DNA from: an uncultured Maribacter sp.
GTDB taxonomy: Bacteria > Bacteroidota > Bacteroidia > Flavobacteriales > Flavobacteriaceae
NCBI GenBank assembly: GCA_938038975.1
Contig: CALHVP010000061.1
Coordinates: forward strand, 86,329-118,336
Length of the DNA: 32,008 bases
Reading direction: 5' to 3'
A program made the position numbers and the translations under genes. The notes under the pieces are model-generated. The model did not search any database and had not been told where the DNA came from. It saw nothing but the letters and a program-made list of their open reading frames with translations. Below are positions 992 to 28,562 of the stretch, one piece after another (position 1 is the stretch's first letter; each line of letters begins with the position of its first letter).

Positions 992-1036
992 TGACCAAGG
1001 TCATTGTATGTGTTTTGAATAGGGGTTAATTTTTTG
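992..1036 (+). promoter_or_regulatory. CRP/FNR-type operator and -7 element for the 1057 gene
   Basis: TGACCAAGGTCA at 992-1003, followed by TT. A TAATTT -7-like element starts at 1027, 29.5 bp from the operator centre. Predicted transcription start is about 1039. Member of the set described in the findings. Confidence 0.7.
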
Positions 1037-1056
1037 GGAAATACATAAAAAGGCAA

Positions 1057-1467
1057 ATGAAAAAGCAAGAAAAGAAAGCAGAAGAATTACATTGGGAAAT
1101 ACAACAATGGAAATCACACTTTCAATTTTTGAATGATGAACTTCTTTTTATCACACGTCTTTTGGACAGTTATGTTTTTCAACCCAACACACCGAATCTA
1201 TTTGAGCGCTTACAAGATTATAAAACACGTATTAAGCAAATTGAAACCACCAAAAAAGGTATTCGCCAGCGTATCTCACAACAAGAAAATATATTGGGAG
1301 GCATGTTAGAGTGCACCAATAGTGCATGTGATTTGACCTACTACCGTAAACACGACAAACTACAAATTGAAATCGATGGTTGTTTATCTCAATTTCAAGA
1401 GTTAAAATCCGAAATTTTTAATTACGCAGGAGGAATTCTAAAAAAACGAAAGCCTATCTCTGAATAA
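1057..1467 (+). CDS. Small coiled-coil protein, paralogue A
   Basis: Uncharacterised 136-residue cytoplasmic protein with no signal peptide or membrane segment. It is rich in Lys, Glu and Gln and looks largely helical/coiled-coil. Residues 18-35 carry a signature, W-x3-[LF]-x-F-x2-DE-x2-F-x3-L, that is shared with the proteins at 1573-2064 and 15917-16387. The three are therefore diverged paralogues. Two cysteines (in ECTNSACD) occur only in this copy. The ATG sits 59.5 bp from the centre of a CRP/FNR-type operator. Function unknown. A role in the stress programme is inferred only from its promoter. Confidence 0.75.
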   Translation: MKKQEKKAEELHWEIQQWKSHFQFLNDELLFITRLLDSYVFQPNTPNLFERLQDYKTRIKQIETTKKGIRQRISQQENILGGMLECTNSACDLTYYRKHDKLQIEIDGCLSQFQELKSEIFNYAGGILKKRKPISE

Positions 1468-1492
1468 AAAGCTTTAAGACTTCTCCCCTAGC

Positions 1493-1535
1493 TGACCAAT
1501 GTCATTTTAATTTCTGCATACAAAGTTTAATTTGG
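1493..1535 (+). promoter_or_regulatory. CRP/FNR-type operator and -7 element for the 1573 operon
   Basis: TGACCAATGTCA at 1493-1504 followed by TT. TAATTTGG starts at 1528, 29.5 bp from the centre. Predicted start of transcription is about 1540. It would drive the coiled-coil protein, lipoprotein and D-lactate dehydrogenase as one operon. Confidence 0.72.
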
Positions 1536-1572
1536 TATTTCACATGTATTCTTAACTTTTTAAAAATTCATC

Positions 1573-2064
1573 ATGAGCACTAAAAAAACAACAATAGAGT
1601 ATATAGAATGGTTTGATGCAGAGCAAATGCACGAACATTCAAAGAAATGGTTTTCAGAGCTATCTTTCATTAAAGATGAGCAGCAATTTTTAAAAAACCT
1701 GATTCAAACGTTCGCTATAAAACCTTTGAACAAAATACAATTTGGACGATTAGAAGGTTTTAAAAAGGCTATAGAAGAAAATGAGTATAGACTGGAACTA
1801 CTTTTTAAAAAAGTGCAAAAACATATAAACCAATTGCGAATCATGCTAGACGATGTAAATCAACTGGATATGGAAAAAGCCTACAGAAAAACGCATAGAA
1901 AACTTAATTCAATGGTTAATGTATACCTACTGGACTATAGAACTGTCAAGGAAAGGGGATTCATAAAATTATCATCTATCCTAAAAGCAGAAAAAGAGAA
2001 AATTGCTTTGGGCAATCCTGATTATAAAATCACCAACGTCAACAAAGAAACTCGAACATCATGA
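1573..2064 (+). CDS. Small coiled-coil protein, paralogue B
   Basis: Uncharacterised 163-residue helical, Lys/Glu-rich protein. It carries the family signature at residues 26-43 (W26, L30, F32, D35-E36, F39, L43) seen also in the 1057 and 15917 genes. No signal peptide and no cysteines. First gene of an operon: its TGA stop overlaps the ATG of the lipoprotein gene (ATGA), which in turn overlaps the dehydrogenase gene, so translation is probably coupled. Function not known. Confidence 0.75.
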   Translation: MSTKKTTIEYIEWFDAEQMHEHSKKWFSELSFIKDEQQFLKNLIQTFAIKPLNKIQFGRLEGFKKAIEENEYRLELLFKKVQKHINQLRIMLDDVNQLDMEKAYRKTHRKLNSMVNVYLLDYRTVKERGFIKLSSILKAEKEKIALGNPDYKITNVNKETRTS

Positions 2065-2720
2065 AACGTATATCAATTGTACTATTACTATTAATTTTTG
2101 GTTGCTCCGATGTGAGCTTAGTAGAAAATTGGAAAAATCCGGATATTGTATTATTTGACGCACAGAAAGTACTAATCGTAGGTATAACAAGTGATAAAGA
2201 TGCTCGAATTAAATTTGAGAATAAATTGAAAAAGCAATTTGACAAGCGGGATGTTGAATCCATGAGAAGCCTAGATGTTTTCGATATAAACTTTACCGAT
2301 TCCAGAAAAACAGAAAAAGAGTTGGACTACTTTGAGGAAAGCCTATTGGACAAGGACTTCGATGCTATATTACTAACTAAGTTAATCGGATCTGAAACAC
2401 GCCAATCCCTAAGAAAAACTATGAATGAATTATATGAAAGTAAGGACGGGTTCAATGAGGACTATAGAAGGCATCAAAATATTTATTATGAAGATGAGTA
2501 TTATGAAAATTTTACGGTGTACAATGCAGAGACCTCATTGTATTGCATCTGTGCAGGTAAAGAACGGTCGCTTATTTGGCGTGGTAGTATAGATATTATG
2601 GACCCAAAAAACATTGACAAAACCATTGATGATTATGTACAACTGGTCATATTGGCAATGGAAGAACAAGATTTAATTTTTAGAAAAGAAAAGCAAAATG
2701 ATGAAGTTACTGGTCTATAG
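2061..2720 (+). CDS. Predicted outer-membrane or periplasmic lipoprotein
   Basis: 219 residues. A short signal peptide with a hydrophobic run (IVLLLLIFG) ends in a lipobox, LIFGC, so Cys15 is the likely lipidated residue. The mature part begins with a VENWKNPD motif and alternating beta-strand/charged segments, resembling DUF4136-type or LPP20-like small lipoproteins, but I cannot assign the family firmly. The C-terminal half is unusually acidic and tyrosine-rich. Overlaps its neighbours on both sides (4 nt with the coiled-coil gene, 23 nt with the dehydrogenase gene), indicating tight operon packing. Confidence 0.75.
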   Translation: MKRISIVLLLLIFGCSDVSLVENWKNPDIVLFDAQKVLIVGITSDKDARIKFENKLKKQFDKRDVESMRSLDVFDINFTDSRKTEKELDYFEESLLDKDFDAILLTKLIGSETRQSLRKTMNELYESKDGFNEDYRRHQNIYYEDEYYENFTVYNAETSLYCICAGKERSLIWRGSIDIMDPKNIDKTIDDYVQLVILAMEEQDLIFRKEKQNDEVTGL

Positions 2721-3708
2721 TACAAAAAAATTTGAATTACCCTTTTTAGAAAAAGCGAATGGTAACCGACACAAAGTAACCTATATAGCGGATGCTTTAG
2801 ATAGTGAAACGGCGATTCAAGCTGTCGGGTACAAGGTAATTTCAATATTTTCTGGTGATGATGCTTCTTCTATTGTTTTAGAAAAATTATGGGAACTAGG
2901 AGTACGTTACATTACACTGCGTTCTTCTGGACATAACAACATTAATATAAAAACAGCGAAACGTTATGGTTTTAGAGTTGCTAACTCCCCAGATTACTCT
3001 CCTTACGCTATTGCAGAACATGCGGTTGGTTTACTGCTTGCCTTTAATAGAAAAATCATTTTAGCAGATAAACAGGTACGCACATATAATTTTCTGCAGC
3101 ACAATTTAATGGGATTCGATATACACGGTAAGACCGTTGGAATAATTGGAACAGGACGTATAGGTAGCGTAATGGTAAAGATTATGCATGGTTTTGGATG
3201 CAAAATAATTGCCACTGACCTTGAGGAAGATAATGATTTGATAGAGTTATGTGGGGTTACCTATGTCCCTTTGGAAGAATTATGTAGTCAATCCGATATC
3301 ATTAGTATTCATATACCACTTACCTATGATAATCACCAATTAATCAACAGGAATAAATTGGAACTAATGAAACGAAACGTAATCCTAATAAATACGGCAA
3401 GAGGAGCAATAGTTGATACCAAGGAACTCATTAAAGCTTTAGAAAAGAATACTATAGGTGGCTATTGTACAGATGTATACGAAAAAGAGAAAGGAAGCTT
3501 TTTTCTGGATAATTCTAAAAATGGATTAAAGGATAAACAGTTAAAGAAACTACTGTCATTTTCCAACGTGCTATTAACTCCCCACCAAGCTTTTGTTACT
3601 AAGGAAGCGCTGGCCAACATTGCAGAGGTTATGATCAGTACTATTACAAATTGGGAAAAAGGATTGCTATGCAAAAATGAGCTAGGATTAGAACTTATAG
3701 ACTCATAG
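2698..3708 (+). CDS. ldhA: D-lactate dehydrogenase (D-2-hydroxyacid dehydrogenase)
   Basis: 336-residue NAD-dependent D-2-hydroxyacid dehydrogenase, of usual length for D-lactate dehydrogenases. It interconverts pyruvate and D-lactate and re-oxidises NADH in fermentation. The Rossmann motif GIIGTGRIG is at about 148-156. The catalytic triad falls at R235 (in NTARGAIV), E264 (in DVYEKE) and H296 (in TPHQAF), the same numbering as in Lactobacillus D-LDH. The start at 2698 gives MM; 2701 is an equally possible start. It is the third gene of the operon starting at 1573. Its stop overlaps the end of the convergent cls gene by 6 bp. Substrate preference for pyruvate is inferred from family; other 2-ketoacids are possible. 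Confidence 0.88.
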   Translation: MMKLLVYSTKKFELPFLEKANGNRHKVTYIADALDSETAIQAVGYKVISIFSGDDASSIVLEKLWELGVRYITLRSSGHNNINIKTAKRYGFRVANSPDYSPYAIAEHAVGLLLAFNRKIILADKQVRTYNFLQHNLMGFDIHGKTVGIIGTGRIGSVMVKIMHGFGCKIIATDLEEDNDLIELCGVTYVPLEELCSQSDIISIHIPLTYDNHQLINRNKLELMKRNVILINTARGAIVDTKELIKALEKNTIGGYCTDVYEKEKGSFFLDNSKNGLKDKQLKKLLSFSNVLLTPHQAFVTKEALANIAEVMISTITNWEKGLLCKNELGLELIDS

Positions 3709-5109
3709 TAGTGGGCTGAACAACTTTCCAAAACCTTCTTTTAATTTATCTAATAGAGATCTTTGCATATATTCAGGATATGAAAGCATTGTACTTATGT
3801 TGGCATCCTTGAGAAAATCTGTTTTCAATAATTGTGCAAAAGTTTGATCGTAAACGATAGCGTTAACCTCATAGTTTTGTTCAAAACTACGATCATCCAA
3901 ATTTGCGGTTCCAATGGTACTAACAGCATCATCGCTAACTATAATTTTACTGTGTAAAAACCCATCTGGGAAAAGATAAATCTTAATACCAGATTTTAAT
4001 AGGGGCTCAAAATAAGAACGTACACTCCAGTTTACTATTTTACTATCTGCATTTTCGGAGACCATCAAGCGAACATCTACCCCACTTCTTACCAATGTTT
4101 GTAATGCCTGCATGATCGCTTGGCCAGGAATAATATAAGGATTAGTAATATAAAGGTATTTTTTCGCACTGTTAATCATTGTAAAATAGGCCTGTTCCAG
4201 TGATGGAAAATCATCATCTGGACCACCAGAAACTATTTGTACCAGCGCTCCCTTATCATCCGAAATCACTATATCCTGCAAGGGTAACGGTTCAATAATT
4301 AGTTGACTTACCAAATACCAATCCATTGTAAAAACATAATCTAAATGGTTAGCCGCTTGGCCTTCTAATTTGAGATGCATATCGTGCCAGCTGCCCAAAG
4401 CAGCATCTCCTTTCAAATATTTATCAGATATATTGATACCTCCCGTAAAGGCGATATAACCATCGATGACTATTATTTTTCGATGATTTCTGTAATTTAA
4501 TGAGGAAAGGAAGCGACCAAATTTAAAAGGGAGAAAAGGATATACTTCTACGCCAATAGCAATCAAGCTTTTTAAATAAGACTTACTTAAAGAAAAACTA
4601 CCGATACCATCATAAATCATTCTAACCTTTACATTTTGAGCTATTTTCTTTTTGAAAAGCTGTAGTAACCTATCTGCCAGTTCACCTTCCTCATAAATAT
4701 AATATTGTAAATGTATTTGCTGCTCTGCCCCTTCCAAGGCATTAAATATAGACTCAAATGTGGTTTTACCATCTTTCAGCAATGTGAGCTTGTTACTTTT
4801 TGTAGGTGGGAAATAGGAGTTTTTATAAACCAGTATCATTAATTTTTGATAGCTTCCTGCAAGCGTAGCTAAATGATTTGAAGTAGGTTTAGTAAGGTTT
4901 ACAAATGCTTCCTTTTTTAACTGTAGTAATTTATTCTTTCTGCGATTTCTTCCCAATAAAAGATATAGGAATATGCCACCAACCGGAACTGTAAATATTG
5001 CCAAAAGCCAAGCTAACGTTTTTGAAGGTTTCGCCCCGTGTAATAGTATGCTCACCACAATGAATAGTGCAAGTATAATATAAAGGGCTAACAAAATACT
5101 AATCCACAT
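3703..5109 (-). CDS. cls: Cardiolipin synthase (phospholipase D family)
   Basis: 468 residues, normal length for bacterial Cls. Two N-terminal membrane helices (residues ~3-25 and ~32-52) are followed by the phospholipase D domain with two HKD motifs, HRKIIVIDGYIAFTGG and LHSKIIVSDDAVSTIGTANL. Each is followed by the typical asparagine/aspartate context (NISDKY, LDDRSFEQNYE). It condenses two phosphatidylglycerols into cardiolipin at the inner membrane. It lies 43 bp downstream of the TonB-like gene on the same strand and is probably cotranscribed from the operator at 5928-5939. The window also has a CDP-alcohol phosphatidyltransferase, so envelope phospholipid remodelling recurs. Confidence 0.93.
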   Translation of the reverse strand: MWISILLALYIILALFIVVSILLHGAKPSKTLAWLLAIFTVPVGGIFLYLLLGRNRRKNKLLQLKKEAFVNLTKPTSNHLATLAGSYQKLMILVYKNSYFPPTKSNKLTLLKDGKTTFESIFNALEGAEQQIHLQYYIYEEGELADRLLQLFKKKIAQNVKVRMIYDGIGSFSLSKSYLKSLIAIGVEVYPFLPFKFGRFLSSLNYRNHRKIIVIDGYIAFTGGINISDKYLKGDAALGSWHDMHLKLEGQAANHLDYVFTMDWYLVSQLIIEPLPLQDIVISDDKGALVQIVSGGPDDDFPSLEQAYFTMINSAKKYLYITNPYIIPGQAIMQALQTLVRSGVDVRLMVSENADSKIVNWSVRSYFEPLLKSGIKIYLFPDGFLHSKIIVSDDAVSTIGTANLDDRSFEQNYEVNAIVYDQTFAQLLKTDFLKDANISTMLSYPEYMQRSLLDKLKEGFGKLFSPLL

Positions 5110-5120
5110 AGGTTCCTTTT

Positions 5121-5156
5121 GTAGTTTCTTTAAAAAGCAATAGTACAGGAAACTAC
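5121..5156 (-). other. Intercistronic inverted repeat between tonB-like and cls
   Basis: GTAGTTTC at 5121-5128 pairs perfectly with GAAACTAC at 5149-5156, with a 20-nt loop. On the minus strand it is followed by AAAAGG rather than a U tract, so it is not a classical terminator. It could be a processing or mRNA-stability hairpin. Confidence 0.4.
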
Positions 5157-5875
5157 ATCAATTTAAAAGTTACTGGAATACTAAAAGGTACTTTAACAGA
5201 CCTACCCCTTTGTTTTCCAGCAGTCATTTTGGGTAAAGTTGCAATAATCCTTTCTGCTTCATTTTCCAAAAGTCTATCAGGGCCTCTCGTTTTAATATCG
5301 GTAATGTTACCATCAACATTTATAATAAACTGGACGTGTACTTTCCCCTGTATCCCCATCTCTAAAGCTATCTCAGGATATCTGAAGTTCTTCTTTACAT
5401 GTTCCTGAATTTTTTGCTCAAAGCAAGCCCTTCTTTCTTCCTTTGCTACTTGCTCGCATCCTGGAAATACCGGCACATCCTCAATAACGGCAAAAGGTAC
5501 TGTTATTTCTTCCTCAACTTCATCAACCATAATATCATCTACGGATATTATTATAGCATTTATTTCAGTTTCCTGATTCATTTCCGTGCTCTGAATAAAT
5601 GTTTCCTCGATTTCGTCGGCATCGGCAATTACTTCGATAATAGTAGGAACAGTTGGCGGCGGTGGCGGTGGTAATTTAAGAGCTTCCGTTATTGGGACTT
5701 CTTCCTTTAAATCTGAATCTATCATATGTGCAATGACAACTTCAGATAAAGTAGTATCATAACTTTTGTACTCCAAAGCTCTCCAAGTAATAAAGAGTAC
5801 TAGAGTAAGACCAATGACAAAAAATAGACCACTATCCTTGTTTAAATCGGCTTTTGGATTTTTTTTAAGTTTCAT
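5153..5875 (-). CDS. TonB-like energy transducer
   Basis: 240 residues. A single N-terminal membrane anchor (residues ~17-34) is followed by a proline run (LPPPPPPTVP at ~68-77), an acidic linker and a C-terminal TonB domain (about 165-240) with NFRYPEIALEMGIQGKV, VQFIINVDGNI and the terminal PVTFKLM strand. This architecture spans the periplasm and links the ExbB/ExbD motor to outer-membrane receptors. No exbB, exbD or receptor lies nearby, so this is an orphan TonB. The mid-region VFPGCE motif is common in Bacteroidota TonB paralogues. It is the first gene of a two-gene unit with cls, behind a CRP/FNR-type operator. Confidence 0.88.
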   Translation of the reverse strand: MKLKKNPKADLNKDSGLFFVIGLTLVLFITWRALEYKSYDTTLSEVVIAHMIDSDLKEEVPITEALKLPPPPPPTVPTIIEVIADADEIEETFIQSTEMNQETEINAIIISVDDIMVDEVEEEITVPFAVIEDVPVFPGCEQVAKEERRACFEQKIQEHVKKNFRYPEIALEMGIQGKVHVQFIINVDGNITDIKTRGPDRLLENEAERIIATLPKMTAGKQRGRSVKVPFSIPVTFKLM

Positions 5876-5896
5876 TATCTTGAGGTTTGCGTTTAT

Positions 5897-5939
5897 TCAA
5901 AATAATACAGGTATTAGCACGTCACAATGATGTAGATCA
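5897..5939 (-). promoter_or_regulatory. CRP/FNR-type operator and -7 element for tonB-like/cls
   Basis: Read on the minus strand: TGATCTACATCA (5939-5928) followed by TTG. TATTTTG begins at 5904, 29.5 bp from the operator centre. The gene starts 58.5 bp from the centre. Confidence 0.7.
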
Positions 5940-6302: not shown

Positions 6303-6549
6303 ATGATCAAAGTATTCTGAATCGGAGTTTGTATTTGTAATCAAACAAGTAGAGACCGGCACCCGTATCCAAGAGGTGTGTCATATGATGGGTATCAGTG
6401 AGGCCACTTTTTACAATTGGAAGAAGAAATATGGAGGGCTTGGTGTCTCTGAACTATATAGGTTAAAGAACCTCGAAGAAGAGAATTCACAGTTGAAGAA
6501 ACTGGTGGCCGACCTAAGCCTTACAAACAGATTTTACAGGACATGCTGA
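6303..6549 (+). pseudogene. IS3-family orfA remnant, frameshifted
   Basis: An ATG at 6303 is followed by one base and then, in a different frame, SKYSESEFVFVIKQVE and a helix-turn-helix with GISEATFYNWKKKYGG. Next comes the leucine-zipper segment LKNLEEENSQLKKLVADLSL, after which the frame ends at TGA 6547-6549. The matching continuation KQILQDMLKKKVLRPPRK lies in another frame just downstream. So there is one indel at the start codon and another near 6525. The usual product is a ~90-residue DNA-binding subunit of the transposase. Confidence 0.8.
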
Positions 6550-8899: not shown

Positions 8900-8942
8900 A
8901 CAAGCTAGCTCAAGAAATGGGTTTAAGCAATGACAATTGTCA
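8900..8942 (-). promoter_or_regulatory. CRP/FNR-type operator and -7 element for the TerB-like operon
   Basis: TGACAATTGTCA, a perfect palindrome at 8931-8942, is followed on the minus strand by TTG. TAGCTTG starts at 8907, 29.5 bp from the centre. The rest of the 290-bp intergenic stretch to 9166 holds only the divergent promoter at 9102. Confidence 0.7.
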
Positions 8943-9101: not shown

Positions 9102-9144
9102 TGATATATATCATTATACATGCTCCTTTCATGGTCTAACTTAT
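9102..9144 (+). promoter_or_regulatory. CRP/FNR-type operator and -7 element for the quinone oxidoreductase operon
   Basis: TGATATATATCA (perfect palindrome) at 9102-9113 followed by TT. TAACTTA begins at 9137, 29.5 bp from the centre. The gene starts 59.5 bp downstream of the centre. Confidence 0.66.
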
Positions 9145-10186: not shown

Positions 10187-10200
10187 TCCAACAAGCAACT

Positions 10201-11547: not shown

Positions 11548-11590
11548 TAAAATTACCACTGACGGGAATCTACTTAAATGATAACTGTCA
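11548..11590 (-). promoter_or_regulatory. CRP/FNR-type operator and -7 element for the cyclase-like pseudogene
   Basis: Minus strand: TGACAGTTATCA (11590-11579) followed by TT. TAATTTTA starts at 11555, 29.5 bp from the centre. The plus-strand reading of the same site is also followed by TT, but no -7 element sits at the right distance on that side. Confidence 0.62.
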
Positions 11591-16409: not shown

Positions 16410-16452
16410 CAAATCTATGGGATGTTCGCACTAGTCTAAATGATTTGAATCA
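16410..16452 (-). promoter_or_regulatory. CRP/FNR-type operator and -7 element for the 16387-12683 operon
   Basis: Minus strand: TGATTCAAATCA (16452-16441) followed by TTT. TAGATTTG, a perfect Bacteroidota -7 element, begins at 16417, 29.5 bp from the centre. The gene starts 59.5 bp from the centre. Confidence 0.78.
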
Positions 16453-16474: not shown

Positions 16475-16518
16475 TGACTTAAATCATTGTAAGTAATGAA
16501 AAATGTCCATTATTTAGT
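16475..16518 (+). promoter_or_regulatory. CRP/FNR-type operator and -7 element, rightward
   Basis: TGACTTAAATCA at 16475-16486 followed by TTG. TATTTAG starts at 16511, here 30.5 bp from the centre. It faces away from the operator at 16441, with centres 34 bp apart. It would drive the broken gene at 16542 and the hydrolase/phosphoribosyltransferase pair behind it. Confidence 0.65.
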
Positions 16519-19913: not shown

Positions 19914-19956
19914 CAAAAATAATAGGACAAGTAAAAGCGCACAATGATGTAGGTCA
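19914..19956 (-). promoter_or_regulatory. CRP/FNR-type operator and -7 element for the PepSY-like/dodecin operon
   Basis: Minus strand: TGACCTACATCA (19956-19945) followed by TTG. TATTTTTG, a perfect -7 element, starts at 19921, 29.5 bp from the centre. Nothing else is seen between 19957 and 20108. Confidence 0.78.
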
Positions 19957-20636: not shown

Positions 20637-20679
20637 ACAATATACTGGCTATGGGCAATACTTAAAATGACCTAGGTCA
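20637..20679 (-). promoter_or_regulatory. CRP/FNR-type operator and -7 element for the archease-like gene
   Basis: TGACCTAGGTCA, a perfect palindrome at 20668-20679, followed on the minus strand by TTTT. TATATTG begins at 20644, 29.5 bp from the centre. Together with the operator at 20971 it is the only feature seen in the 472-bp gap 20577-21048. Confidence 0.75.
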
Positions 20680-20970: not shown

Positions 20971-21013
20971 TGATTTGTGTCATTTCAAAAGAGTTTCGTC
21001 TTATCTATTTTTA
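20971..21013 (+). promoter_or_regulatory. CRP/FNR-type operator and -7 element for the glycogen fusion gene
   Basis: TGATTTGTGTCA at 20971-20982 followed by TTT. TATTTTTA starts at 21006, 29.5 bp from the centre. The predicted transcript starts near 21018, about 31 nt before the ATG. Confidence 0.75.
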
Positions 21014-21048
21014 TCACTTTGAATAGATGGATATAACTAAGAATACTA

Positions 21049-24000
21049 ATGGAAAACACTTCAAAATCCTATGCGCTACCTAATTATCTTTTCGAAGTAA
21101 GCTGGGAAGTCTGTAACAAACTAGGAGGTATCTATACCGTAGTATCTACTAAGGCAAAGCTGCTACAGGATACCTACGGCGATCACTTTATACTGTTAGG
21201 TCCCGACATTTACAAAGGGGAATTGGGCAACAGGGATTTTATCGAAGATCAAGAACTATTTAAGGATTGGAAAATACAATTCGAAGTTGATGGGCTCAAG
21301 CTCAGAACTGGTAGATGGAATATTCCAGGTAAACCGATTGTTATTCTTGTGGACTTTTCGCCATTGTTTGCTGTAAAAGACCAAATTTTCAAATTGTTAT
21401 GGTCCAAAAACAAGCTTGATTCACTCTTGGGTGGATGGAATTACATTGAACCAGCCTTATTTGGTATAGCCACAGGTAAGGTCATCGAAAATTTTAGCCG
21501 ATTCTACCTACAACCCAACGAACGTCCTCTAGCTCATTTTCATGAATGGATGACGGGCGCAGGCGTGCTCTATCTCGAGAACAATTCACCTGAAATAGCT
21601 ACCGTATTCACCACCCATGCTACTTTTACCGGACGTGCCATCTGTAGCAATGGGCAGCCTTATTACAGTCGGTTAGACACCTATAATGGAAATCAAATTG
21701 CAAAAGACTTTAACGTAATGGCTGAACATTCCTTGGAAAAGACAGCTGCTATTACTGCGGATGCATTTACCACGGTTAGCGAAAACACAGCGCGTGAATG
21801 CCAGCAATTATTAGGCAAGGCCGTGGACCAAGTAACTACCAACGGTTTCGAAGATTCTTTTTTACCAGAGAAAGATCAATGGAAAACAAAAAGGGTAGAA
21901 TCCCGAAAACGACTTCTAAAAGTTGCTTCCGCCGTGGTGGGCACTAAAGTAAACGAAGATGCATTTCTTGTAGCCACGAGCGGTAGATATGAATATCGCA
22001 ATAAGGGAATTGACCTCTATATTGATGCCTTGGCGAATCTAAACCAAAAAGAAGGAATGAACCGTCAGTTCATTGCTTTTGTTATAGTTCCTGCAAACCA
22101 TACCATTCCAATTCCCGAAGTACATACTGCTATCAAAACAGGAAACTTTACCAGAAGTAATGGCTCTATTACCCTAACCCATTACCTACAAGATCCAGAA
22201 AATGACCTTATTCTAAAACAAATCAAGGATAGCGGATTCACAAATAACTCCAATTCAAATATCATAATCATCTATGCCCCGATATACTTAGATGGCCACG
22301 ACGGAATATTCAACAGTTCCTATTACGAAGTACTTATAGGTCTGGATTTAACGGTTTTCCCATCCTACTATGAACCCTTTGGCTATACTCCCTTGGAAAG
22401 TCTTGCCTTTCATGTGCCCACCTTAACTACCACTCTGACAGGTTTTGGACAACAGGTTAAATCAAATGTAATAGGATATAGAACAGGTATGTTGGTCATT
22501 GAACGCTCTGACTTTAACAATCGAACCGTTACCGAACAAATTGCGAATTATATTTTAGCGTTTAGCAACAAAGATGCATCCGAAATAAAACAAGCACGTG
22601 AGAAAGCGTTCGAAATTTCACGTTCTTTTCTTTGGAAGAACTTGATTCATAATTATAACGAGGTTTACCAAATTGCCTTGAAAAGGCATACACTGCGAAC
22701 ACAAACATTGGAACGTCTCAGGAAACTGACCCCTAGCGTATACGTCGCCTCAGCGAAATCGAATGAGCCTATATGGAAAAGTGCAATGGTTAAGTTTAAG
22801 ATACCCGAAAGCCTAAAAGATCTGGAAAGAATAGCAAAAAACCTATGGTGGACGTGGCATCCCCAAGCGGCGGAACTTTTTGCCTCTATCGACTCCGAGC
22901 TCTGGGAAACTTCCAACCATAACCCCATTTGTCTGATTAGTTCGTTGGACTACGACCGTTTTCTTGAATTGGAAAAGGATGAAACATTTAAGTCCCGATT
23001 ACAACAAATAACGGAGATATTCAATGCCTACATGTTCAAAACTTCTGAAAAGAAAGACCCTAAAATCGCATACTTGTGTATGGAATACGGGTTGCACGAA
23101 TCCATTCCCATTTATTCTGGCGGACTAGGCATCTTAGCTGGCGACTATCTTAAGGAAGCCAGTGATCAAAACAGCGATATAGTAGCGTTCGGACTTCTTT
23201 ACCGCTATGGCTATTTTAATCAAGGTTTCACGGTGCATGGAGATCAAGTAACACAATATATCAAACAGCACTTTACGATGCTACCCATTTCCCCCGTTAT
23301 GGATGCAAATGGCAAGCGAATGGTATTACTCTTACCTTTAAGAGGAGCTATTATCAACTCACAGGTCTGGCGGATAGATGTAGGCCGTATTCCCCTCTAT
23401 CTATTCGATACAGATATACCAGAGAACAGCGACGATAATAAAAAGATTACTCACAACTTGTATGGAGGGGATAACGAAAACCGTTTTCGACAAGAACTTT
23501 TATTGGCCATTAACACCTTACAATTACTAGAAAAATTAAAGATAAAACCTAATTTGTTTCATTACAATGAAGGGCATACGGCCTTTACAGGACTAGTACG
23601 TATTGTAAAACTGATGGTTGAGAAAAACCTCAGTTTTAAGGAAGCGGAACAATTCGTGAAAGCATCGACCCTGTTCACTACACATACGCCAGTACCTGCT
23701 GGGCAAGATGTTTTCGGGGAAGACCTTTTACGTGGCTATCAGGCACATTTTGCAGAGACAATGAACATTCCTTGGGAACAATTTATGGGCCTTGGCAAAC
23801 TAAAACCTATAGATAAAAAAGAAAAATTCTCCATGACCTATCTGGCGGCTCGGTCGGCTGGGGAAATCAATGCCGTAAGTAAGATTCATGCGGAAGTGAC
23901 ACGAAATATGTTCAGCTCCATTTGGAAGGGTTTTTTACCAGAAGAATTAGCAATCGAGAACGTTACCAATGGGGTACATTATGCCACTTGGACAGCTACC

Positions 24001-25299
24001 GAATGGCAGCAACTGTTCACTGAAACGTTCGTGACCGATTTTCAAAAGAATGTGTCCAACTCTGAGCATTGGGTCAAGGTTCGTGAAATTCCTTCGCAAA
24101 AAATAGCAGAGATTAAAAAAGTCTTGAAAAAGAAGTTAATCTCTGCGTTAAAAAAACGCCTTTTGGAAAGTATGAAACAATTACATTCCTCCTCCAAACA
24201 GATGTACGGGGCATTAAACTCCTTTGATGAAAACGATTTACTCATAGGTTTTGCCCGCCGTTTTGCAACTTATAAACGTTCCAATCTACTCTTCCAAGAT
24301 GAAGAACGATTGGCAAAACTCCTGAACCAACCCAACAGACCGGTAAAAATAATCTTTTCCGGCAAGGCACACCCTGTGGACATCGGAGGGCAACAACTTA
24401 TTAAACAGATAATCGAGATTTCTAAAAAACCGAAGTTTTCAGGTAAGATATTCTTTATCCAAAACTACGATATGGCTTTGGCGCGTTTGCTAGTCCAAGG
24501 CTGTGATGTATGGTTGAACACGCCTGAGAGGAGAAATGAGGCCTGTGGTACTAGCGGCATGAAAGCAATTCTTAACGGCACCCTTAATTTTAGCATATTG
24601 GACGGTTGGTGGGCAGAGGCCTATAGAGACGATTCCGGTTGGGGACTGTCAAAAGAAAAAAATTATGATAACTCGGAAGATCAAAATGATTTTGATGCCG
24701 AGACCTTATACAACATGTTGGAACATGAAATAATTCCAGAATATTTTGAAAAAAATGCAAAGGAAATTCCTGAAAAATGGATCGGACGTATCAAAAATGC
24801 CCTGATACACATTGCCCCTCATTTTACGACGGAACGCATGTTAGATCAATATTTCGAAAAATACTATTTACAAATGTATAATCGAGTACAAAAAATGCAA
24901 CAGAAAGAGTATAAGGTGGTCAAAGAGCTTGTACAATGGGGTAAAAAAAATAATGAAGCATGGGATAAGATTTCGGTCGTGGATGTACAAGTATCTAATG
25001 GGGTCAAGCCATTGGAACTCGGAGAGACCTTTCAAGCGGAAATTACATTAGATTTGGGCGAGCTTTCCCCAAAAGAAATCGGTGTAGAACTGGTATTCGC
25101 TAAACGCCAGGCAACTGGGGAATTTAAAATCCGTAGCGTTCAAGAGCTAAAATTTATTTCACAAAAAAAGAATCAAGCAGTGTATAAAGGCGAAGCCATC
25201 GTAACCATTACGGGGGCATTTCAGTATGACATCCGTTTTTATCCTAAAAACAAATGGCTGAAATATCGGCGTGATTTGCCCTTGGTAGAATGGATCTAA
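21049..25299 (+). CDS. Fused glycogen synthase (GT3) and alpha-glucan phosphorylase (GT35)
   Basis: 1416 residues, two enzymes in one chain. N-terminal ~560 residues: GT3-type glycogen synthase with the sugar-nucleotide motif KLGGIYTVVSTKA, HFHEWMTGAGVLYLE, FTTHATFTGRAI and the acceptor Glu motif PSYYEPFGYTPLESLAF. From about 585 onward: short-type (archaeal-like, TIGR02094) alpha-glucan phosphorylase with NLWWTWHPQAAELF, IYSGGLGILAGDYLKEASD, THTPVPAGQD, GFARRFATYKR and the PLP site GTSGMKA with the lysine at residue 1172, followed by SILDGWWAEAYRDDSGWG. The last ~110 residues form a beta domain. One half builds and the other phosphorolyses alpha-1,4-glucan, so the polypeptide can both make and use glycogen. 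All key motifs of both halves look intact. Confidence 0.93.
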   Translation: MENTSKSYALPNYLFEVSWEVCNKLGGIYTVVSTKAKLLQDTYGDHFILLGPDIYKGELGNRDFIEDQELFKDWKIQFEVDGLKLRTGRWNIPGKPIVILVDFSPLFAVKDQIFKLLWSKNKLDSLLGGWNYIEPALFGIATGKVIENFSRFYLQPNERPLAHFHEWMTGAGVLYLENNSPEIATVFTTHATFTGRAICSNGQPYYSRLDTYNGNQIAKDFNVMAEHSLEKTAAITADAFTTVSENTARECQQLLGKAVDQVTTNGFEDSFLPEKDQWKTKRVESRKRLLKVASAVVGTKVNEDAFLVATSGRYEYRNKGIDLYIDALANLNQKEGMNRQFIAFVIVPANHTIPIPEVHTAIKTGNFTRSNGSITLTHYLQDPENDLILKQIKDSGFTNNSNSNIIIIYAPIYLDGHDGIFNSSYYEVLIGLDLTVFPSYYEPFGYTPLESLAFHVPTLTTTLTGFGQQVKSNVIGYRTGMLVIERSDFNNRTVTEQIANYILAFSNKDASEIKQAREKAFEISRSFLWKNLIHNYNEVYQIALKRHTLRTQTLERLRKLTPSVYVASAKSNEPIWKSAMVKFKIPESLKDLERIAKNLWWTWHPQAAELFASIDSELWETSNHNPICLISSLDYDRFLELEKDETFKSRLQQITEIFNAYMFKTSEKKDPKIAYLCMEYGLHESIPIYSGGLGILAGDYLKEASDQNSDIVAFGLLYRYGYFNQGFTVHGDQVTQYIKQHFTMLPISPVMDANGKRMVLLLPLRGAIINSQVWRIDVGRIPLYLFDTDIPENSDDNKKITHNLYGGDNENRFRQELLLAINTLQLLEKLKIKPNLFHYNEGHTAFTGLVRIVKLMVEKNLSFKEAEQFVKASTLFTTHTPVPAGQDVFGEDLLRGYQAHFAETMNIPWEQFMGLGKLKPIDKKEKFSMTYLAARSAGEINAVSKIHAEVTRNMFSSIWKGFLPEELAIENVTNGVHYATWTATEWQQLFTETFVTDFQKNVSNSEHWVKVREIPSQKIAEIKKVLKKKLISALKKRLLESMKQLHSSSKQMYGALNSFDENDLLIGFARRFATYKRSNLLFQDEERLAKLLNQPNRPVKIIFSGKAHPVDIGGQQLIKQIIEISKKPKFSGKIFFIQNYDMALARLLVQGCDVWLNTPERRNEACGTSGMKAILNGTLNFSILDGWWAEAYRDDSGWGLSKEKNYDNSEDQNDFDAETLYNMLEHEIIPEYFEKNAKEIPEKWIGRIKNALIHIAPHFTTERMLDQYFEKYYLQMYNRVQKMQQKEYKVVKELVQWGKKNNEAWDKISVVDVQVSNGVKPLELGETFQAEITLDLGELSPKEIGVELVFAKRQATGEFKIRSVQELKFISQKKNQAVYKGEAIVTITGAFQYDIRFYPKNKWLKYRRDLPLVEWI

Positions 25300-25318
25300 T
25301 TTAACTTTAAAAACAAAT

Positions 25319-25777
25319 ATGATGATAAAAGATTTGGATAAAAAAACATATAAAGACATACTCAGTAATAACTACATTGGACGTTTGGCCTATATATGCA
25401 AAGGAGAACCCTTTGTTGTGCCGATTACCTATTATTATTGCCATGACAATAATAGTATTATTAGTTATTCGGCAAAAGGTCATAAAATAGAGGCTATGCG
25501 TATAAACCGAATGGTTTCATTTGAAGTGGATGAGATCATATCCGTAAACCGTTGGCGCTCCGTATTGGTCCATGGGCTATTTGAGGAGTTGCATCAGATA
25601 GATGCAAAATACCGATTACATGAATTTTCAGAAGGCGTAAAAAAAATCATCGAAAAAATAGAAAAGAAAAATCCTCAATTTATCGGTGAATTTTCCAGTA
25701 AGCTAGAGGGCCAAGGAATGCCGGTGGTGTATAGAATAAACATACGGGAGATTACAGGAAAACAAAGGAAAGATTAG
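25319..25777 (+). CDS. Pyridoxamine 5'-phosphate oxidase-like flavoprotein
   Basis: 152 residues with the split-barrel FMN-binding fold. IGRLAYICKGEPFVVPITYY is the N-terminal strand pair of the nitroimidazole-resistance/PNPOx-like group. It is followed by YSAKGHKIEAMRINRMVSFE and the dimer-interface region NRWRSVLVHGLFEEL. Such proteins bind FMN or F420-like cofactors and act as small reductases. It starts 19 bp after the glycogen fusion gene and belongs to its operon. MM at the start leaves a choice of 25319 or 25322. Confidence 0.83.
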   Translation: MMIKDLDKKTYKDILSNNYIGRLAYICKGEPFVVPITYYYCHDNNSIISYSAKGHKIEAMRINRMVSFEVDEIISVNRWRSVLVHGLFEELHQIDAKYRLHEFSEGVKKIIEKIEKKNPQFIGEFSSKLEGQGMPVVYRINIREITGKQRKD

Positions 25778-25800
25778 CACTTAGTTTAAGGATATTATGC

Positions 25801-25819
25801 AGTAAAGAACACCTTTACT
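25801..25819 (+). other. Short hairpin after the PNPOx-like gene
   Basis: AGTAAAG pairs with CTTTACT (7 bp, 5-nt loop), followed by ATAATTT rather than a pure T run. It may be a weak terminator. In the remaining gap to 26082 I see no operator of the window's common type and no gene. Confidence 0.4.
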
Positions 25820-26082
25820 ATAATTTAGAGAAATAAAAAGGGAGGCATCCACAGTGGGTCTAGTGCAAAGCAAATGTAGTATTCAACCCTTTCGGACAAT
25901 CACTAGTAATCGTTCTAAATACATACCATGAAACAATAGATGAAAGGGCCAAAAACCGCGAAACAAAAAGTGGGCTATTACCTAAGCTGAAATAGTTTTT
26001 GAGCTTTTGGAGTTGTCAACCCCACGTGCTAAAATTGAAAAGAAGATTAGACTTTTTTTTCTTAAAACAAAAAATCTTTACC

Positions 26083-27051
26083 ATGAACAAGATTATTACA
26101 TTAACAATGAATCCCGTGGTGGAAAAAGCAACTTCAGTGGCCGGCGTTATCCCTAATAAAAAGTTACGCTGCGGGTCGCCTCATTATTCTGCGGGCGGTG
26201 GAGGTATAAATGTCTCGCGTGCGATACAAAATCTTGGAGGCAGCTCGCTCTGCATGTATGTCGCAGGTGGACCGGCGGGTACTCACTTGCAACAGCTTTT
26301 ATCCAATAACCTTATCGAACAAAAAGTTATTTCCATAAAGGGATGGACACGTGAAAATCTTTTCGTTACCGACACCAATACAAATTTGCAGTATCGTTTT
26401 GGGATTCCTGGACCAAATGTTAAAGAAGAAGAATGGCGTGAAGTGCTTAAACATGTTGACGATACTATAAGAAAAGGCGATTATTTAGTAGCTAGTGGAA
26501 AACTTCCATTAGGTGTTCCGACCAACTTTTACGTACAGGTATCCGATATAGTTCATAGAAAAGAAGGGCGCTTAGTTCTTGATACTTCCGGTAAAGCCCT
26601 GTTGCCCAGTATGAAATCAGATATTTTTCTCATGAAACCAAACCTCTCGGAATTGAGTGAGTTGTGCGGTGTAGAATCTATATCCATTTTGGAACTGGAA
26701 CGGCTATCAAAAAATATTTTGAAAAAATATCCTGTAAAAATCCTTGTGGTTTCCATGGGTGCGAAAGGTGCGTTCTTGGCAACAAAAGAGACAAATAAGT
26801 ATATTGCCGCGCCCACTGTACATCAAAAAAGTACTATTGGATCAGGCGACAGTATGGTTGCAGGGATGGTCCTGGGTTTATCTCAAGGAAAAGCGTTGAG
26901 TGAAATGTTCCAATATGGGGTTGCTTGTGGCACGGCAGCCACTATACATCCAGGAACACAGCTTTGCAAAAAAGAGGATGCGGATAAACTATACGAATGG
27001 CTTCTTGCGGAAAATGTTAAAAAAAATAAAAATATTACCGAACTGACCTAG
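26083..27051 (+). CDS. pfkB: 6-phosphofructokinase, PfkB family
   Basis: 322 residues from the ATG at 26083. The frame is open 28 codons upstream, but that start does not match the family. It resembles E. coli Pfk-2 closely in order: MNKIITLTMNPVVEKATSVA, KLRCGSPHYSAGGGGINVSR, MKPNLSELSELCGVE, the catalytic STIGSGDSMVAGMVLGLSQG with the Asp base, and the terminal YGVACGTAATIHPGTQLC. It phosphorylates fructose-6-phosphate with ATP. Pfk-2-type enzymes are linked with stress and low oxygen, as with the DosR-regulated mycobacterial pfkB. Its TAG stop lies inside the operator of the small RNA that follows. Confidence 0.86.
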   Translation: MNKIITLTMNPVVEKATSVAGVIPNKKLRCGSPHYSAGGGGINVSRAIQNLGGSSLCMYVAGGPAGTHLQQLLSNNLIEQKVISIKGWTRENLFVTDTNTNLQYRFGIPGPNVKEEEWREVLKHVDDTIRKGDYLVASGKLPLGVPTNFYVQVSDIVHRKEGRLVLDTSGKALLPSMKSDIFLMKPNLSELSELCGVESISILELERLSKNILKKYPVKILVVSMGAKGAFLATKETNKYIAAPTVHQKSTIGSGDSMVAGMVLGLSQGKALSEMFQYGVACGTAATIHPGTQLCKKEDADKLYEWLLAENVKKNKNITELT

Positions 27052-27086
27052 GTCATTTTGAACCATCCAAATCCGTATTACTTTAG
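27044..27086 (+). promoter_or_regulatory. CRP/FNR-type operator and -7 element for small RNA 1
   Basis: TGACCTAGGTCA at 27044-27055 followed by TTTTG. The pfkB stop TAG (27049-27051) is within it. TACTTTAG starts at 27079, 29.5 bp from the centre. Predicted start of the RNA is about 27091. Confidence 0.78.
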
Positions 27087-27161
27087 CTCTATTATAAGTA
27101 AAAAGTTATTTGAAAACAGTGAAAGTGGGTTTTGGTTTCGGGGGAACACCAAACCCATAAT

Positions 27162-27284
27162 TATAGAAGCGGTTACGAAAATTCGGTACACCATTTGAAT
27201 CGTGAACAGGTTTAGCAATAAACTGTAGTAAGGATCAGTATAAGCGGTCATCGAACAGAAATAACGGTTTCTTTGGAGACCGGG
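27162..27284 (+). repeat. Core repeat copy 1 of the small RNA pair (123 bp)
   Basis: Identical over 123 bases to 27453-27575, separated by 291 bp start to start. Flanking sequence differs on both sides except for the compensating terminator. Confidence 0.85.
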
Positions 27285-27310
27285 GGACTTCGGTACCTCG
27301 GTTTCTTTTT
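27276..27310 (+). terminator. Intrinsic terminator of small RNA 1
   Basis: GAGACCGGGGGAC pairs with GTACCTCGGTTTC over 12 of 13 positions (G-U allowed) around a TTCG loop, then TTTTT. A UUCG loop closed by C-G is exceptionally stable. Confidence 0.85.
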
Positions 27311-27328
27311 CTAAAAAAATAACAAAAC

Positions 27329-27371
27329 TGACCCAGGTCATTTTTAAATTTACTTCCTCAAACTATTTTAG
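27329..27371 (+). promoter_or_regulatory. CRP/FNR-type operator and -7 element for small RNA 2
   Basis: TGACCCAGGTCA at 27329-27340 followed by TTTTT. TATTTTAG begins at 27364, 29.5 bp from the centre. Predicted start about 27376. The operator, spacing and -7 element duplicate those of RNA 1. Confidence 0.78.
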
Positions 27372-27452
27372 TTGTAAGATTAAATAGAGAACAGTTCTTT
27401 GAAACTATAAGTAGGTGGGTTTTCACGTATTGGGAATATAAAGACCTATAAA

Positions 27453-27575
27453 TATAGAAGCGGTTACGAAAATTCGGTACACCATTTGAATCGTGAACAG
27501 GTTTAGCAATAAACTGTAGTAAGGATCAGTATAAGCGGTCATCGAACAGAAATAACGGTTTCTTTGGAGACCGGG
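27453..27575 (+). repeat. Core repeat copy 2 of the small RNA pair (123 bp)
   Basis: Identical partner of 27162-27284. Confidence 0.85.
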
Positions 27576-27600
27576 ATACTTTAGTGTCTCGGTTTCTTTT
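27567..27600 (+). terminator. Intrinsic terminator of small RNA 2
   Basis: GAGACCGGGATAC pairs with GTGTCTCGGTTTC at all 13 positions (G-U allowed) around TTTA, then TTTT. Compared with RNA 1, changes in both arms keep or improve pairing. Confidence 0.85.
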
Positions 27601-27694
27601 AGAATATTGATCTTGTGTCGCAAGGCTATAGGTCATCATGAAGCGCTTTATGCACTTCATGGGAAACAGGAAGTTAAAGCTTCCTGTTTCTTTT
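27601..27694 (+). ncRNA. Structured non-coding segment 3
   Basis: Lies after the terminator of RNA 2. Contains CATGAAG...CTTCATG hairpin (about 27637-27661) and ends in a strong terminator. No separate CRP/FNR-type promoter was found, so it may be a weakly transcribed read-through product or an attenuator. Boundaries are uncertain. Confidence 0.45.
27663..27694 (+). terminator. Intrinsic terminator, segment 3
   Basis: GAAACAGGAAG pairs perfectly with CTTCCTGTTTC (11 bp, loop TTAAAG), followed by TTTTA. Confidence 0.82.
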
Positions 27695-27888
27695 ATACAA
27701 TGATGTTAAACAAGCTTGGCTTCTAAGCAGCAATGCCTTAGCGGCTATAAAAAGGTATCCGATAACCTAAATTATTGAAAATTCGAGCTAATACGTAGCT
27801 AGTACGTTTCCACTCGGAACTGCATTCAAAAATGAAGTACTCGGATACCCGAGAAAGGACTGGGATATTCTGGTATGTCAGTCCTTTT
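27695..27888 (+). ncRNA. Structured non-coding segment 4
   Basis: No coding frame. Contains several small hairpins (AGCTA-ATACG-TAGCT; CTCGG-ATAC-CCGAG) and the terminator at its end. A TATACAAT box follows the previous terminator and could be a start signal. Boundaries are uncertain. Confidence 0.42.
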
Positions 27889-27891
27889 AAA
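27854..27891 (+). terminator. Intrinsic terminator, segment 4
   Basis: AAAGGACTG (27854-27862) pairs with CAGTCCTTT (27879-27887) around a 16-nt loop, with T and AA following. Confidence 0.7.
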
Positions 27892-28074
27892 AACATTAGG
27901 AAAGGTTTTTAGCGTTGAAAGGCACTAAAGACCGGAAAGGTTCGAGTTGTTTTTAGGCCAAGATTGCCCCTACACCATTTTAGCGATAAAATGGCTCAAG
28001 GATAGATTGAAAGCAAAAATGAATCGAACAGTTCAAAGGAAACAGGAGACCTATGGCCTCCTGTTTCTATTTTC
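27889..28074 (+). ncRNA. Structured non-coding segment 5 / leader of the DUF302 gene
   Basis: Contains an 8-bp hairpin with a GCGA (GNRA) loop, CCATTTTA-GCGA-TAAAATGG, and ends in a terminator only 23 nt before the DUF302 ATG. It may be an attenuating leader. A 64-codon frame through it (27947-28141) has no family resemblance and overlaps the terminator. Confidence 0.45.
28039..28074 (+). terminator. Intrinsic terminator, segment 5
   Basis: GAAACAGGAG pairs perfectly with CTCCTGTTTC (10 bp, 9-nt loop), followed by TATTTT. Both arms are close copies of those in the segment 3 terminator. Confidence 0.78.
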
Positions 28075-28097
28075 AATCCACACTAAAAACTTATCTC

Positions 28098-28490
28098 ATG
28101 GAATACTACTTCAACAAAACGATTGGCAACACTACTTTTGATCAAGCTATAGAAAAGACAAAAGCTGCACTACAAAAAGAAGGTTTCGGAGTACTGACGG
28201 AAATTGATATGAAAACTACCTTAAAGAAAAATCTCGAAGTCGATTTTCACAACTATATAATTCTGGGTGCATGCAACGCTCCTTTCGCCTACAAAGCTTT
28301 ACAGACCGAACGCAATATCGGCACAATGTTACCTTGTAATGTCATCGTACAGGAAAAGGAAGCCGGACTCATAGAAATCGCGGCCGTAAACCCTATGGCC
28401 TCTATGCAAGCGGTTATAAACAAAGATTTGAAGGGTATTGCAGGTGAAGTTGGTGAGAAATTAAAAAGAGTGGTAAATAGTCTCAGGTAA
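28098..28490 (+). CDS. DUF302 protein
   Basis: 130 residues from the ATG at 28098. An earlier in-frame TTG at 28053 would start inside the terminator and add a segment unlike the family. DUF302 features: YYFNKTIGNTTFDQAIEKTK, ALQKEGFGVLTEIDMKTTLK, and the internal LGACNAPFAYKALQTERNIG and MLPCNVIVQEKEAG. Function is unknown; the family is often encoded near sulfur, redox and stress genes. Its leader carries an array of structured non-coding segments, so attenuation is possible. Confidence 0.85.
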   Translation: MEYYFNKTIGNTTFDQAIEKTKAALQKEGFGVLTEIDMKTTLKKNLEVDFHNYIILGACNAPFAYKALQTERNIGTMLPCNVIVQEKEAGLIEIAAVNPMASMQAVINKDLKGIAGEVGEKLKRVVNSLR

Positions 28491-28519
28491 TTTCAAAAAT
28501 TACATCGTCTCAAACCGAC

Positions 28520-28562
28520 TGATTAAAATCATTCCAGAGCTCCATACAAGAATTTATTTTTA
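28520..28562 (+). promoter_or_regulatory. CRP/FNR-type operator and -7 element for the flavin reductase operon
   Basis: TGATTAAAATCA at 28520-28531 followed by TTC. TATTTTTA starts at 28555, 29.5 bp from the centre. The gene starts about 14 nt after the predicted transcript start. Confidence 0.75.

Follow-up and report, generated by a model that had tools for sequence, protein, structure and literature searches.

Genes and operator-like sites of the window

The stretch analysed here (the window) comprises 32,008 nucleotides from a draft genome of an uncultured Maribacter sp. (3.29 Mb, 279 contigs, 85% complete) and corresponds to positions 86329-118336 of contig CALHVP010000061.1 (C61). Its genes were taken from open reading frames (ORFs) of at least 80 amino acids (aa) together with a separate check of shorter ORFs, and 14 palindromic TGA-N6-TCA sites were found ahead of metabolic and stress-related genes and of two structured RNAs (Table 1). 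The original prediction had read these sites as operators of the CRP/FNR protein family, phased to the promoter at the class II activator distance and forming a window-wide regulon. A re-scan recovered all 14 at the positions given there, 13 of them being intergenic as claimed, while the one at 27044 reaches into the final codons of a pfkB-type ORF (25999-27051). The intergenic space, which had been put at roughly 5 kb, amounts to about 6.2 kb outside ORFs of at least 80 aa and to slightly less when the dodecin ORF is counted; the dodecin itself, named as a target, matches PF07311 at 3e-25 (minus strand).

In total, TGA-N6-TCA occurs 25 times in the window as compared to an expectation of 9.6 +/- 3.4, a count reached in none of 100 shuffles. 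A site is called phased when a TANNTT sequence, i.e., a -7 element, lies 29.5 bp from the operator centre, and 13 of the 14 listed sites are phased exactly, as had been predicted. No other spacing from 14.5 to 44.5 bp has more than two TANNTT, and in 300 dinucleotide-shuffled versions of the window phased sites numbered 0.18 on average and never more than 2. The remaining site, 16475, for which a TATTTA at 30.5 bp had been described, indeed shows this sequence by eye but fails the TANNTT phasing and is counted as unconfirmed. When read in promoter orientation, all 14 sites are followed by T and are preceded by C (11) or A (3), hence the window site has an orientation, [A/C]TGAY-N4-RTCAT.

Table 1. 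Operators, -7 elements and RNA units of the window (window coordinates)
Feature	Position	Strand	Genes behind it, remarks
Operator TGACCAAGGTCA and -7 element	992..1032	+	ORF 1057-1467 (136 aa, no Pfam match)
Operator TGACCAATGTCA and -7 element	1493..1533	+	1573-2064, 2061-2720, D-2-hydroxyacid dehydrogenase 2698-3708
Operator TGATCTACATCA and -7 element	5899..5939	-	TonB_C protein 5153-5875, phospholipase D-type (cardiolipin synthase-like) 3703-5109
Operator TGACAATTGTCA and -7 element	8902..8942	-	TerB-like 8475-8876
Operator TGATATATATCA and -7 element	9102..9142	+	Zinc-type alcohol dehydrogenase 9167-10186, short-chain dehydrogenase/reductase 10180-11058
Operator TGACAGTTATCA and -7 element	11550..11590	-	ORF 11233-11526 (97 aa, no Pfam match)
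Operator TGATTCAAATCA and -7 element	16412..16452	-	ORF 15917-16387 (156 aa, no Pfam match)
Operator-like TGACTTAAATCA, TATTTA at 30.5	16475..16516	+	By eye; unconfirmed
Operator TGACCTACATCA and -7 element	19916..19956	-	ORF 19349-19858 (169 aa); dodecin 19093-19308 40 bp behind it
Operator TGACCTAGGTCA and -7 element	20639..20679	-	Archease-like 20109-20576
Operator TGATTTGTGTCA and -7 element	20971..21011	+	Glycogen synthase/phosphorylase fusion 21049-25299, PNPOx-like 25319-25777
Operator TGACCTAGGTCA and -7 element	27044..27084	+	Ahead of RNA B
RNA B	27090..27311, covariance-model core 27165-27311	+	Ends in intrinsic terminator; start placed by the -7 element
Operator TGACCCAGGTCA and -7 element	27329..27369	+	Ahead of RNA C
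RNA C	27375..27602, core 27456-27602	+	Tandem near-copy of RNA B
Possible third, weaker RNA unit	27934..28073	+	31 to 42 bits; overlaps DUF302 gene start; unconfirmed
Operator TGATTAAAATCA and -7 element	28520..28560	+	Flavin-reductase-domain protein 28581-29195, then 29189-29728, 29725-30381

Genome-wide distribution and promoter anatomy

Beyond the window, a stringent pattern, CTGAYNNNNRTCAT (CTGAYN4RTCAT), and a looser oriented one, TGAYN4RTCA, were searched for, with the reversed pattern as control. The stringent pattern occurs 52 times in the draft genome as compared to 14 times for its control, whereby 27 sites locate to C61 (118 kb), 8 to contig C212 (34 kb), 3 to contig C147 (17 kb) and 14 to all other contigs. 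Thus 38 of the 52 sites lie on three contigs making up about 170 kb or 5.2% of the genome, and 32 of these 38 are phased; on the other contigs 2 of 14 are phased (C123, C171) and one has its element at 30.5 bp (C97). A genome scan had been named as a possible refutation by the original prediction; the sites outside the three contigs turned out to be at control level and mostly unphased. The observation proved real but understated, and the proposed regulon extends past the window. On C61, the element stands 29.5 bp away in 42 of the 104 oriented TGAYN4RTCA sites, as compared to at most 5 for any other spacing between 8.5 and 99.5 bp, a spike with a chance of about 1e-50 even when the element frequency found upstream of genes is used.

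The three contigs hold 58 oriented phased sites in all. A start codon follows within 150 bp of the operator start in 45 of them, in 21 at a distance of 60-70 bp, so that leaders should be short. Together with 102 sites of relatives, these 58 sites yield the consensus AA[A/C]TGAY-N4-RTCATTTT, 19 unconserved bases, TANtTTT[A/G], in which only the letters beyond TGAYN4RTCA and TANNTT are informative since the sites were preselected for both. Each of the 58 own sites has A (26) or C (32) before TGA, and none of the 19 spacer bases exceeds 0.3 bits. Four palindromic sites (C61:37620, 62465 and 81045; C212:3718) are phased in both directions, giving one operator for divergent genes. For another four phased sites (C61:55075, 67613 and 78223, all minus strand, and C212:734, plus strand), the 180 bp from the inferred start onwards contain no called gene; one of them opens onto an initially dropped ORF of 224 aa and the others onto seemingly decayed or short frames.

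The site is two-fold symmetric with TGA half sites and stands at one fixed distance from a core promoter element, as is characteristic of class II promoters, and from the -7 element its centre would be placed near -41.5. Bacteroidota promoters possess a -33 element, and the T-run following the operator falls where it would be expected; the activator hence seems to replace or overlap the -33 element, as at class II promoters. The same TTTT could be taken to mean that a bound CRP/FNR protein blocks the polymerase, so that the sites would repress or act both ways instead of activating. This reading is regarded as rather improbable, as a single exact distance kept in well over 100 promoters is what a contact between activator and polymerase demands, conservation stays at or below 0.3 bits at every position between 16 and 34, and known class II CRP/FNR promoters share the geometry. 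The sites are probably operators of CRP/FNR-family activators at class II promoters with a survival output that includes the RNAs.

The targets and neighbours of the phased sites comprise universal stress proteins (two confirmed by Pfam, the others recognised by their first residues), two Hsp20, a DnaJ/CbpA-type protein, an S30AE ribosome hibernation factor, pyruvate phosphate dikinase (PPDK), PNPOx-like and PfkB proteins, a P-type ATPase, an MlaE permease, an M50-CBS protease, a BON protein, an archaeo-eukaryotic release-factor-like protein, archease, glycogen synthase/phosphorylase, dodecin and a cbb3 oxidase. This gene set suggests a function in survival of low oxygen or energy stress, comparable to the lxa locus discussed below, whereby low oxygen would be the inducer.

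The possibility of a plasmid or of recently acquired foreign DNA was considered and rejected: the three contigs have a G+C content of 36-38%, similar to three control contigs (33-38%), the clusters of relatives reside on contigs of up to 3.57 Mb, and only transposase pieces were seen. These pieces (HTH_Tnp_1, rve_3) lie inside the clusters, at 6376-6549 and 6643-7140 of the window and at C212:4512-4826.

Conservation in other genomes

The comparison with relatives centred on a gene of the cluster that encodes a fusion of a response-regulator receiver with a CRP-type output (receiver-CRP, described in the next section), whereby 35-40 kb around it were compared in ten other genomes of the family, i.e., nine other genera and the congener G075. 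The architecture is the same in ten of ten, including one region with 48% G+C: 102 of 252 oriented sites are phased, 3 to 16 in every genome. These regions make up about 1% of each genome and hold 3-11 of its 21-53 CTGAYN4RTCAT sites, where an even spread predicts 0.2-0.5. Phased sites near the gene were also counted in named relatives, with 5 in Aquimarina, 5 in a Flavobacteriaceae bin, 1 in Salinimicrobium and 2 in Flavobacterium sp. 7A. By contrast, among 63 control loci matching only or mainly the receiver part, 1 of 204 sites is phased. The fixed spacing therefore holds both on the 118-kb contig and in all ten other genomes, which supports the reading of the sites as CRP/FNR-type operators of one regulon, placed at the class II distance. 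As both motifs are short and AT-rich, a chance or compositional product of an AT-rich genome could be imagined; given the shuffles, the other spacings, the control contigs, the control loci and the ten other genomes, one of them with the 48% G+C region, its probability is practically negligible. The oriented operator, its exact spacing, its clustering within about 170 kb and its conservation elsewhere are documented by the sequences compared.

Genes that bear an operator in relatives tend to have operator-bearing counterparts in the own genome (62 bear it in both, 19 only in relatives, 33 only in the own genome and 136 in neither; p 4e-18), with an odds ratio of 13 that is inflated by universal stress protein paralogs. 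The excess of the motif over its control was compared to the presence of the receiver-CRP fusion and of an FNR-like gene, yielding medians of 27 with both regulators (n=36), 14 with the fusion only (n=30), 10 with the FNR-like gene only (n=55) and 7 with neither (n=28); the p values against neither (2e-6, 8e-4 and 0.02, respectively) ignore kinship and thus phylogeny, and the reversed pattern is an imperfect control. In this test genome G002 was scored as lacking the fusion, its matches covering the receiver only.

A different spacing was identified outside the family: in 10 cases, from Chitinophaga, Arcticibacter, Mucilaginibacter, Sphingobacterium and two bins, TGAYN4RTCA and the -7 element are 51.5 bp apart. 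A site at 29.5 bp around the fusion gene is absent from Jiulongibacter, Arcticibacter, Mucilaginibacter, Sphingobacterium, Crocinitomix and one bin, several of which have sites at 51.5 bp. At several of the 51.5-bp loci (L112:11039, L113:11042, L117:11065, L111:60 and 5822, L110:17426) a weaker TGA-N6-TCA-like site is seen by eye 22 bp further in, at 29.5 bp; these pairs appear as tandem sites two helical turns apart.

Candidate regulators

The genome yielded six HTH_Crp_2 matches, of which three lie on C61. Two belong to fusions of a receiver, a cyclic-nucleotide-binding (cNMP) domain and HTH_Crp_2 (C61:30699-31775 and 71412-72464), each adjoined by a PAS histidine kinase. A further protein, FNR-like and composed of a cNMP fold and HTH_Crp_2 according to domain search, is encoded on C147 (3347-4051, L013; orthologs L084-L102) next to a CcoN/FixO fusion gene, with further cbb3-type genes nearby recognised by eye; its gene has a phased site of its own. 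The CRP/FNR-family reading of the original prediction is thus supported by family genes with a fitting recognition helix on the very contigs that carry the sites. Three other CRP-like genes (C61:60693 and those on C66 and C212) were rejected as readers of the site, as their helices are without the Glu of the FNR-like and fusion proteins.

The fusion has the attributes of a response regulator, namely a phosphoacceptor Asp and a partner kinase: receiver Asp52 and the helix residues E316, I319 and R320 are invariant in 16 of 16 aligned fusions, and a kinase is adjacent to the gene in 43 of 44 loci. Full-length fusions occur in 66 of 149 family genomes (the 67th, G002, having the receiver only) and are confined to the own class among 296 genomes surveyed across the phylum (E up to 1e-30). 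The recognition helix reads TETAIR in the second own fusion and TESCIR in the FNR-like protein, and the shared E-x-x-I-R means that one operator could read oxygen, via an iron-sulfur cluster, and a kinase signal together. In solved FNR chains, Ser occupies the position at which these proteins have Ile, an exchange in keeping with the missing T before TGA as compared to the FNR half site. Cys10, Cys13, Cys59 and Cys112 are present in 8 of 8 aligned FNR-like sequences, the own one included, whereby three align with cysteines of solved FNR and Cys59 lies elsewhere. With A or C before TGA instead of the TTGAT half site, the protein is best called FNR-like, not FNR proper.

The first PAS domain of the kinase matches FixL at 1e-10. 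In the 11 of 43 adjacent kinases that could be aligned over the region (the best segment of the other 32 fell short), the equivalent of FixL His200 is present in 10 and that of Arg220 in 6, so that a FixL-type heme pocket was not recovered and the kinase has no support as a heme-based oxygen sensor.

The FNR-like protein and the two receiver-CRP response regulators would hence be the best candidate binders. The simpler view that the FNR-like protein alone reads the operator, while the receiver-CRP proteins merely sit in the cluster and control something else, draws on the phased site at the FNR-like gene itself and on genomes with an FNR-like gene, no receiver-CRP match and many sites (G077, 71 as compared to 7 in the control). 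It is considered unlikely, since five genomes (G075, G108, G056, G078 and G054) have no close FNR-like ortholog, their best matches being 4e-34 to 1e-25 or weaker as compared to 1e-57 or better in 89 genomes, yet carry 9-16 phased sites in the surroundings of the receiver-CRP gene. In addition, the receiver-CRP gene of Arcticibacter, Mucilaginibacter, Sphingobacterium, Salinimicrobium and Aquimarina is followed at 10-40 bp by an operator-like site.

A structured RNA family downstream of the operators

Three operators (27044 and 27329 of the window, and C61:28581) face no called gene within 650 bp, and it was because of these promoters without a gene behind them that the RNA family was found. 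The RNAs, which the original prediction had listed among the targets, turned out to belong to a conserved structured family. The three own copies of about 225 nucleotides have a long imperfect hairpin and a strong terminator in common, with minimum energies of -58, -53 and -60 kcal/mol. ATG frames of at least 25 aa are absent from the first two copies, and the third has one of 30 aa; the remaining frames are a 46-aa TTG frame (27058-27198, plus strand), which starts before the inferred RNA start, and two antisense frames of 87 aa (27078-27341, without a Pfam match) and 66 aa (27423-27623). Rfam 15 gave no match in the window at the gathering cut-off, and at a relaxed E-value nothing relevant in 26900-28100 or in six RNA loci.

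A first covariance model, built from the own copies, matched 6 further genomes of 149, of which one was dropped (G133, hit C1:710867 with no operator near; a second G133 hit, on C2, came with the second model, R2). The second model, built from 7 sequences, matched 36 of 397 family genomes, the own included, from 31 of 237 genera; over 395 genomes of the class it returned 3 family genomes above 100 bits and four other genomes with partial hits of 33-37 bits, which were dropped. Although the operator is not part of the covariance model, a phased operator lies 109-128 bp upstream of the core in 26 of 32 loci read (from 30 of the 36 genomes, three loci being the own copies), at 69 or 301-483 bp in five, and is absent from one near a contig end. 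Among 25 loci fetched with the second model, one overlapping an earlier locus, the operator is at 109-128 bp in 19 and within 500 bp in 24.

In 52 copies, 42 of 44 base pairs have changed on both sides, with 528 such cells as compared to 166 in shuffles and 70-122 in slid controls, in an alignment that was fitted to the structure. An independent MAFFT alignment of the 18 best copies, folded with RNAalifold, reproduced the outer stem, the apical helix and the terminator; of its 36 pairs, 26 show at least one compensation. Mere sharing of terminator hairpins, without any single family, would agree with the terminator helix being the best conserved part (98.6% of cells paired) and with the terminator-like look of the four partial hits outside the family; it is very improbable, as all six non-terminator helices have changed on both sides, the independent fold recovers the outer stem and apical helix, and phased operators precede the core at a near-fixed distance. 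At the level of sequence the RNA is a conserved structured and apparently non-coding family, new by comparison with Rfam alone.

The receiver-CRP gene is present in 12 of 13 RNA-bearing genomes as compared to 54 of 136 others (149 genomes; p 2.6e-4). In 12 other genomes with RNA and gene on one contig the two are 0.2-37 kb apart in nine and at least 198 kb in three; like the own copy A, an RNA copy lies less than 2 kb from the gene in five other genera (G031:C12, L216; G037:C314, L207; G110:C1, L212; G124:C27, L205; G133:C2, L206). RNA units often occur in tandems of two or three, the later ones scoring lower (C61:28902-29042, L194, L202, L215 and others). Near the RNA start, AGTTCTTTGAAAA or a variant is found with at least 11 of 13 letters in 17 of 31 loci, a level that 17 of the 236,672 strand positions of C61 reach. 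Similar elements in 16S leaders reach 10 of 13 letters in two of three genomes and 8 in the third, and AGTTCTTTGAAAA presumably resembles the boxA of rRNA operons.

Comparison with known systems

FNR and ANR class II promoters of E. coli and Pseudomonas likewise combine a TGA half-site palindrome centred near -41.5 with cbb3 oxidase and universal stress protein targets. They differ in the half site ([A/C]TGAY here, TTGAT for FNR), in the helix residue (Ile here, Ser there), in the promoter, which here has the Bacteroidota -7 element TANNTTT, and in one of four cysteines (Cys59) that stays unaligned. In the FixL-FixJ-FixK system a PAS histidine kinase and a CRP/FNR output govern micro-oxic genes, as is proposed for the cluster; here a single fusion protein combines the receiver and the CRP output, for which the other system uses FixJ and then FixK, and the heme-pocket Arg of FixL has the partial conservation described above. 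The DosR/OsdR dormancy regulons contain similar gene classes (universal stress proteins, Hsp20, pfkB, PNPOx-like, P-type ATPase) but belong to Actinomycetota and employ another response-regulator type and another operator. For DosR/OsdR as comparison system, reference is made to PMC5069765.

According to passages on the lxa locus of Burkholderia, this locus unites metabolic, stress and transport genes, among them six universal stress protein genes, is induced by low oxygen and has the CRP-type, Anr-related protein BCAM0049 as proposed oxygen-sensing regulator (PMC9104464, PMC6127331). The likeness lies in one locus of such genes, universal stress proteins included, with a CRP-type regulator; the phylum and the promoter type differ, and the operator array, the receiver-CRP regulator and the RNA family are those of the island and receive no mention for lxa in these excerpts. 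NmpRSTU of Myxococcus xanthus is a two-component control of oxygen-use operons with a universal stress protein gene as one target, which differs by an NtrC-like regulator, sigma-54 promoters and the site GCGCA-N5-TGCGC (PMC11841059).

Proposed mechanism and implications

Considering all of this, a working mechanism can be suggested. In cells short of oxygen or under energy stress, the FNR-like protein, as putative sensor, and the receiver-CRP proteins, presumably in phosphorylated form, would bind the common operator near -41.5. The bound activator would sit just upstream of and partly over the -33 place and recruit RNA polymerase, whereby survival genes (universal stress proteins, Hsp20, ribosome hibernation factor, PPDK, glycogen enzymes, P-type ATPase, cbb3 oxidase) and the RNAs would be switched on. 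The RNAs, perhaps protected from early termination by boxA, might act on messages or proteins; on account of the long hairpin, a 6S-like function was also considered. That the cluster in its entirety is a chromosomal low-oxygen survival island of the Flavobacteriaceae, with about 50 promoters, an operator read jointly by an FNR-like sensor and receiver-CRP regulators, and boxA-bearing RNAs as core output acting when oxygen or energy runs out, is held to be about an even bet.

Several observations weigh against the reading of the sites as operators of CRP/FNR-family activators with a survival output. The RNA was found in neither of the two congeners searched (G075, G570), and G075 is one of the genomes without a close FNR-like ortholog. 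The operator just ahead of the kinase-fusion pair (C61:69859) is phased only towards a TerB-like gene on the opposite strand. One of the ten other genomes has only the minimum of 3 phased sites, and a motif excess of at least 15 occurs in 5 of 28 genomes with neither regulator, so that other proteins may read the site. The genera without a site at 29.5 bp, the paralogs behind the odds ratio, the kinship and the imperfect control in the motif-excess test, and the Arg220 equivalent missing in 5 of 11 aligned kinases count in the same direction, as does the draft state of the genome with its 85% completeness and three contigs that are possibly not adjacent.

A description of such a regulon in Bacteroidota was not found in searches of an open-licence library of papers. 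Marine Bacteroidota are main degraders of algal matter, and with the operator defined precisely, the geometry of the promoter, the candidate regulators identified by name and a list of the genes, predictions are provided here that are testable in relatives such as Aquimarina or Salinimicrobium. If the reading is true, it would describe a two-component system writing directly onto FNR-type promoters, the receiver-CRP fusion being the direct route by which kinase signalling would be joined to them, and the RNA family would be a candidate regulatory or protein-binding RNA of low-oxygen life in Bacteroidota.

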